Part shown: piece by piece, positions 13,576 through 13,823 of the stretch | Layout of the letters: each line of letters opens with the position of its first letter | How positions within the stretch are numbered: position 1 is the first letter of the stretch | Source: a virus | IMG/VR virus record: IMGVR_UViG_3300046733_001417 | Coordinates: 1 to 41,690 of that record | DNA: 41,690 nt | Direction: 5' to 3' (one strand) | Translations under genes and position numbers: made by a program | Notes under the pieces: generated by a model | Told to the model about the DNA's origin: nothing | Seen by the model: only the letters and a program-made list of their open reading frames with translations | Databases searched by the model: none

Positions 13576-13823
13576 CTAGTGCCAAACGAGTGCCAGATTT
13601 TACCAAAAAGTCCTCCTAGTGCCACTCTAGTGCCAAATTTTTCCCATAACCTCCACACACTAGTCAACACTAATAGTCACCTACTGTCCCTTTAGATAAG
13701 GGCGTTTAGGGTTTTTCGGTGGTGGCGAAACCCAGAATCGAACTGGGGACACAAGGATTTTCAGTCCTCTTATTATGCCACACCAGTAAAGGGATTTAAG
13801 GGTATCAGTGCCAACTAGTGCCA
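13576..13823. other. attP: attP site with three pairs of integrase arm-type repeats
   Basis: Six copies of AGTGCCA, all in one orientation, start at 13578, 13589, 13618, 13629, 13807 and 13817. They form pairs spaced 11, 11 and 10 bases, about one helical turn. Two pairs lie on the integrase side and one on the far side of a tRNA-Phe fragment (13720-13769), which is the likely core. This is the layout of tyrosine-integrase attP sites. Phage genes lie on both sides, so the site appears unintegrated. Confidence 0.8.
13720..13769 (-). tRNA. Partial tRNA-Phe (GAA), 3' part only; attP core
   Basis: Read on the minus strand, the anticodon stem GAGGA/TCCTT with loop CTGAAAA (anticodon GAA, 13762-13760), variable GTGTC, a perfect T-arm CCCAG-TTCGATT-CTGGG, the acceptor 3' strand TTTCGCC, an A discriminator and an encoded CCA are all present. 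The matching 5' acceptor strand (GGCGAAA) and a D-arm are absent, so it is not a working tRNA. The phage supplies the 3' end so that integration restores the host gene. Confidence 0.8.

Follow-up and report, generated by a model that had tools for sequence, protein, structure and literature searches.

The window analysed here is the whole 41,690-nt stretch of viral DNA. Within it, a 298-bp intergenic region between an integrase gene (12565-13569, - strand) and a set of rightward genes contains six copies of the heptamer AGTGCCA, all direct and on the + strand, starting at 13578, 13589, 13618, 13629, 13807 and 13817. The copies form three pairs with start-to-start spacings of 11, 11 and 10 bp and are split around a tRNA-like core, with four toward the integrase gene and two on the opposite side; the outermost copy lies 9 bp from the start of the integrase gene. 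The features discussed below are:

11177-11437, - strand: HTH_17-like protein, 86 aa (Pfam HTH_17, E 1.2e-4, 22.7 bits, below the 27-bit cut-off; tblastn)
12565-13569, - strand: tyrosine integrase gene, 334 aa (PHROG "integrase", E 1e-23; alignments; AF2 model; Foldseek matches to XerA and lambda Int)
13578-13584, + strand: putative P' arm site, outer pair, copy 1 (AGTGCCA), near the integrase start codon; position conserved in relatives
13589-13595, + strand: putative P' arm site, outer pair, copy 2; position conserved in relatives
13618-13624, + strand: putative P' arm site, inner pair, copy 1; position conserved in relatives
13629-13635, + strand: putative P' arm site, inner pair, copy 2; position conserved in relatives
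13643-13670, - strand: block GTGTTGACTAGTGT-N6-GTTATGGG, between the core and the P' arms; similar block in the same place in relatives (alignment)
13713-13770, - strand: attP core region, with 58-bp identity to host tRNA-Phe genes (comparison with bacterial genomes)
13720-13770, - strand: 3' part of tRNA-Phe(GAA), comprising the anticodon arm, variable loop, T arm, 3' strand of the acceptor, discriminator and CCA (13720-13722) (Rfam RF00005, 33.7 bits; comparison with intact genes)
13758-13764, - strand: CTGAAAA, the 7-nt anticodon loop and predicted crossover (overlap) region; the left identity of relatives stops at its C in four phages
13807-13813, + strand: putative P arm site, copy 1; position conserved in relatives
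13817-13823, + strand: putative P arm site, copy 2; position conserved in relatives

Anatomy of the site and its integrase

Across the whole window, AGTGCCA occurs 9 times versus 5.2 expected, and because this total is unremarkable, the weight rests on clustering rather than number. No second 300-bp stretch of the window has a 7-mer present six times, and only 5 of 10,000 dinucleotide shuffles of the 298-bp region yield one. The decisive control is comparative: 10 further distinct loci have repeats of other sequences at corresponding positions. Exact positions, shuffles and relatives thus bear out the sequence-only reading of six AGTGCCA copies arranged in helical-turn pairs around a tRNA fragment. 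As in a lambda-type attP, arm repeats lie on both sides of the core, here and, with equivalent repeats, in the relatives.

The core itself includes 51 nt of a tRNA-Phe(GAA) with an encoded CCA (AGAGGACTGAAAATCCTTGTGTCCCCAGTTCGATTCTGGGTTTCGCCACCA). Its assignment as the 3' part of such a tRNA, likewise proposed from the sequence, is confirmed by the Rfam tRNA match (33.7 bits) and by comparison with intact genes. ARAGORN calls no tRNA gene at the core when run on the window, as the D-arm is missing, and we therefore reject a tRNA gene proper. That the phage keeps this sequence as a tRNA gene or remnant for translation, with its place beside int being incidental, has next to no chance of being correct: the Rfam match does span the whole model, but the D-arm is absent, ARAGORN rejects the sequence, and what relatives retain is the 3' part alone, beginning at the anticodon loop, with a different 5' flank. 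This comparison with relatives already refutes such a role.

The neighboring ORF had been called an integrase gene, and its PHROG match (E 1e-23) confirms this. The tyrosine recombinase catalytic domain is recognized by PHROG, by Foldseek and by the residues R197, K224, R283, H305 and Y315, which are invariant in ten aligned integrases, while the Pfam match (PF00589, E 4.6e-5, 23.7 bits) falls under the 27.1-bit cut-off. The HxxR motif takes the form H279-D-G-A-R283, with the histidine one residue further away. HDxAR is found in all ten aligned integrases, and HDGAR, one residue longer than the usual HxxR, occurs in nearly all relatives; the second catalytic histidine is therefore uncertain. 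We assign residues ~1-52 to an arm-binding domain, followed by core-binding and catalytic domains. In an AF2 model built from ten relatives, with modest overall confidence (mean pLDDT 79, pTM 0.49), the N-terminal domain consists of three β-strands (residues 4-7, 19-24 and 28-33) and a helix (36-52), a block with pLDDT of 82-90. We take this sheet and helix to be the kind of arm-binding domain known from lambda Int. Foldseek matches to the model include XerA, IntI4 and the DNA-bound lambda Int 1z1b (E 9e-7).

Two further elements may serve the recombination. The conserved TTGAC block at 13643-13670 is a putative int promoter or accessory-protein site; the stricter form of its pattern is found, among viral contigs, in this phage family only, and a scan for consensus promoters gave nothing convincing for int. 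The HTH_17-like ORF at 11177-11437 is a candidate excisionase (recombination directionality factor) and is present in all six related phage records compared by tblastn. The window also encodes recombination and replication genes, all on the - strand: a Rad52/Erf-like annealing protein (10704-11177), a PD-(D/E)XK exonuclease (9637-10713), RusA (9206-9640), a DnaB-like helicase (7446-8765) and a sigma-factor-like regulator (4517-4987).

Host target, integrated forms and genome form

To identify the host, we scanned for exact matches to a 34-base core in one genome per species, which yielded 94 loci. In 21 of these, the acceptor strand TTTCGCC is present as well, and every one of the 21 belongs to Verrucomicrobiota (Opitutia/Opitutales), many being marine. 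Four loci (L015, L041, L053 and L087) share 58 bp with the window, an identity that runs beyond the CCA through CCGAAAA, while most other host loci are identical over 52-53 bp. Bacterial tRNA-Phe genes that end as the fragment does, which the sequence-only reading had proposed as a search, are thus found, and a fragment without identity to any of them is not the case here. Integrases at E < 1e-30 occur in only four of 273 genomes of the order, all from one family, and a prophage of the window's own phage was not found in the host genomes.

Junctions formed by relatives are nonetheless present beside bacterial tRNA-Phe genes, where the sequence-only reading had suggested looking for prophages. 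In genome G007 (AG-892-I21, locus L033), an intact tRNA-Phe is followed by four P' repeats, a complete integrase with 65% identity and host-type genes (LRR and MORN-repeat proteins, cyclophilin and efflux parts). As these lie directly behind int, we interpret the locus as a prophage remnant; neither a terminase nor a full prophage was found in the G007 genome. G260 is arranged in the same way, with an intact tRNA-Phe, P' repeats and a 55% integrase. In G009, both junctions are seen: L088 runs from host flank through an intact tRNA-Phe and the P' repeats into the start of int, while L085 begins inside the tRNA and continues into the other host flank. The relative L092 provides the uninterrupted empty site, where identity to L088 is 89.7% across 3.4 kb that end with the tRNA, and identity to L085 is 95.5% from within the tRNA. 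Occupied and empty host sites are therefore both at hand for a relative of the phage. The proposals that this is an attP with integrase arm sites and that tRNA-Phe is the host integration site are both supported at the level of sequence, by host genes with the same 58 bp, by integrases directly behind intact tRNA-Phe genes and by the comparison of occupied and empty sites. Since the core is the 3' part of the tRNA, integration would restore the gene, in keeping with the 58-bp identity and with the intact tRNA-Phe that ARAGORN calls in the attL of G007, G009 and G260.

The relatives also narrow the crossover. In four phages (L004, L007, L013 and L150), the stretch identical to the host tRNA begins precisely with the C of CTGAAAA, and in G001, it begins two bases before this C. 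Because the left junction must form within shared sequence, strand exchange would occur either in the anticodon loop or to its right. CTGAAAA itself, with the anticodon stem forming an inverted repeat around it, is the most likely overlap region, a sublocation that has likewise been described for mycobacteriophages (PMC3706429, PMC10865867).

Whether the window represents a free phage genome can be assessed from a related phage. G001 (42,497 bp) consists of two pieces of G002 (76,944 bp) joined across the G002 ends, with 100 and 99.99% identity, and as G001 spans these ends, the related phage maps as a ~77-kb circle with attP inside. The window is collinear with this phage over the extent of G001. 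The window and G001 end at about homologous places, and G002 adds the 34 kb that close the circle. Given this collinearity with a circular relative, the window is probably best read as about half of an unintegrated, 77-kb circularly mapping phage genome. The earlier claim of an unintegrated genome, drawn from phage genes on both sides of the site, is therefore supported, and it gains from the circular relative, whose map runs through attP, but the window is probably a fragment of a ~77-kb genome. The window is linear and has no end repeats, as might be expected of a chimeric contig or of a piece of an integrated (tandem) prophage, in which case an intact attP would be no sign of an unintegrated phage. 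We consider this very improbable, as G001 and G002 map as a circle with attP, the window follows their gene order, and host-borne junctions differ from the window in having an intact tRNA ahead of the P' arms.

We therefore propose, with strong but not full confidence, that a temperate phage of marine Opitutales uses the site as its attP and that its integrase binds the heptamers and exchanges strands with the host tRNA-Phe gene in the anticodon loop. The anatomy of the site, its host target, the integrated product in the host genomes of relatives and the conserved arm geometry are read from the sequences themselves; arm binding, the exact cleavage positions and accessory factors belong to the model. 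In this model, the N-terminal β-sheet domain of the integrase would bind the six heptamers, while the central and catalytic domains would bind weaker core sites around the anticodon arm. Recombination of attP with the host tRNA-Phe gene, by strand exchange in the anticodon loop, would join the host 5' half to the phage-borne 3' half, so that attL has a restored tRNA-Phe followed by the four P' arms and int; attR would keep the P pair and the displaced 3' fragment of the tRNA. This assigns a host and an integration site to a phage family without a near relative in the annotated phage collection searched, an assignment that rests on sequence, including the empty-site comparison for a relative. 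Such an attP is ordinary in kind and well supported; the notable part is the series of repeats and N-domains described below.

Repeat types and integrase N-domains in the phage family

The same core is found in the viral contigs L003 (the same virus in L002), L004/L008/L010, L007, L009, L012 and L013, and with a slightly different T arm in L150/L165. Seven distinct related phages share the layout, and where the integrase gene is full-length, its identity ranges from 77 to 56%. Counted from the C of the anticodon loop, all seven have three repeat pairs, at -59/-49 (or -58/-48) and at about +131/+142/+171/+183. In the bacterial locus L088, the distance from core to arms is ~12 bp longer and that between the two P' pairs is 11 bp longer, each about one helical turn, which would fit a need for the arms to face one way.

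The repeat sequence itself differs among these loci. Given as - strand sequence, the heptamers are TGGCACT (window), TGTCACG (G001, G006 and L150), TGTCACC (L004/L008/L010, G005 and L033), TGGCACA (L007 and L009), TGTCACA (L088) and TGTCAAA (G260). This gives six heptamer types in 11 distinct loci, and the copies inside any one locus agree. What is conserved is six repeats at six fixed places, not AGTGCCA. The absence of AGTGCCA near the att sites of relatives, which the sequence-only reading would have held against its proposal, is thus literally true; as the six positions are occupied in each relative by a heptamer of its own, it amounts to covariation rather than to a refutation of arm sites.

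The N-terminal domains of the integrases change along with the repeats. The sister integrases of the window and G001 are 87% identical over residues 161-334 and only 52% over residues 1-46, whereas the G001 and G004 integrases, far apart in the catalytic part (61%), are 76% identical over residues 1-46. In a comparison of ten integrases, pairs that share repeat base 3 show higher identity in the N-domain, measured against the middle domain, and none of the 120 label assignments gives a more extreme split than the one observed (exact permutation, 1/120). At residue 6, the three G-types have Arg or Lys and the eight T-types all have Tyr; the two groups are likewise set apart by residues 4, 7, 9, 10, 16, 18 and 20. 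In the tree of the remaining protein, well-supported branches force at least two base-3 switches. As the N-domain tree has one supported branch only, we judged residue covariation by direct comparison and permutation. The three G-types fall in two clades and the hypothesis was formed on the same data, so that N-domain similarity following repeat base 3 (G or T) rather than kinship is a lead, not proof.

An explanation that we regard as having about an even chance is that the arm sites evolve in concert: the six copies (four in attL) would switch heptamer with their positions fixed, paired with changes in the N-domain, and residue 6 (Arg/Lys or Tyr) would read arm base 3 (G or T). If so, the phage family would be a natural series for reading an arm-recognition code. 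Its six heptamer types at fixed positions, with matching N-domains, form a test set for how tyrosine integrases alter their arm specificity while up to six sites have to remain compatible.

The same data bear on whether the pairs are arm sites at all. The outer pair is near the int start codon, and all four P' copies are enclosed by int and the conserved TTGAC block, as would suit operators of a phage repressor, or of an integrase repressing itself at the int promoter. One pair, however, lies beyond the tRNA core, away from int and at a fixed distance in all phages, and the integrase's own N-terminal domain varies together with repeat base 3. We give only a slim chance to operators as the explanation in place of arm sites, while a double role of the heptamers, as arm sites and operators, is quite possible.

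A hairpin ending in a U run lies just behind the CCA, between the core and the P' arms, and is strong (z below -3) in five of the eight loci folded (L003, L008, L007, L150 and L033); the phages concerned apparently supply the restored tRNA with a terminator. Folding of the window, G005 and G006 gave a weak or absent hairpin behind the CCA, and with the strong hairpin missing, we do not claim a phage-borne terminator for the window.

Comparison with known systems and other tRNA-Phe loci

When compared to lambda, the window shares a predicted bivalent integrase, with an N-terminal β-sheet arm-binding domain, a core-binding domain and a catalytic domain, and arm sites on both sides of the core (PMC4880445). 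Lambda has five arm sites, whereas the window has six in three pairs, all direct and four of them on the integrase side; unlike in lambda, the target is a tRNA anticodon loop, with 58 bp common to phage and host. The mycobacteriophages of cluster J (Omega, BAKA) are similar in that direct pairs of arm repeats flank a tRNA core, which in their attP is 44 bp with its left end in the anticodon loop (PMC3706429). They have four sites at attP rather than six, attP is downstream of int, and their N-domains differ without systematic matching site differences (PMC3706429), whereas in the window's family, repeats and N-domains differ together. Cluster K1 (CrimD, Anaya, Adephagia) has paired arm repeats (11-bp); a putative terminator lies between its core and its arms, and one arm base varies in step with N-domain residues 17 and 19 (PMC3203893). 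Covariation of repeats and N-domain is therefore already known in kind, and the question of arm-site specificity has been raised for cluster K, with few types there (PMC3203893). Cluster K1 differs in its tmRNA target, four sites and inverted P3/P4; in the window's family, the repeats number six, fall into six heptamer types across 11 distinct loci and show two separate switches at base 3. In the annotated collection, the only tblastn matches to the integrase are from the Akkermansia phages Moulinsart, Chambord and Chantilly (27-31% identity), which are distant from the window; their hosts are also Verrucomicrobiota.

Several other bacterial loci have tRNA genes or fragments of note. In Opitutales AH-709-J17 (L049, 2941-2996), we observe an attR-like 3' fragment of tRNA-Phe with the CCGAAAA extension; the 7.9 kb examined contained neither matching repeats nor relatives of the window ORFs, and the fragment may belong to another element on the same tRNA. 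One contig of OFTM35 (L106, L067) has a 3' fragment of tRNA-Phe ~12 kb from an intact tRNA-Phe, with a possible island in between. In Opitutales UBA7389 (L096, ~5806-5880), a tRNA-Phe with 5' end GGCGAGA and 3' end AGGAGCC has a mismatched acceptor stem and is not called by ARAGORN. Its 3' end resembles the core in the phage contig L011, a record in which no tRNA gene was found; L096 is either a chimeric contig or the product of a tRNA-damaging integration. Finally, L159 and L160 (G279 and G256) have a 40% related integrase with TGCCACC repeats at its start; a tRNA 5' part lies upstream of it, and an intact tRNA-Thr(CGT) is nearby.
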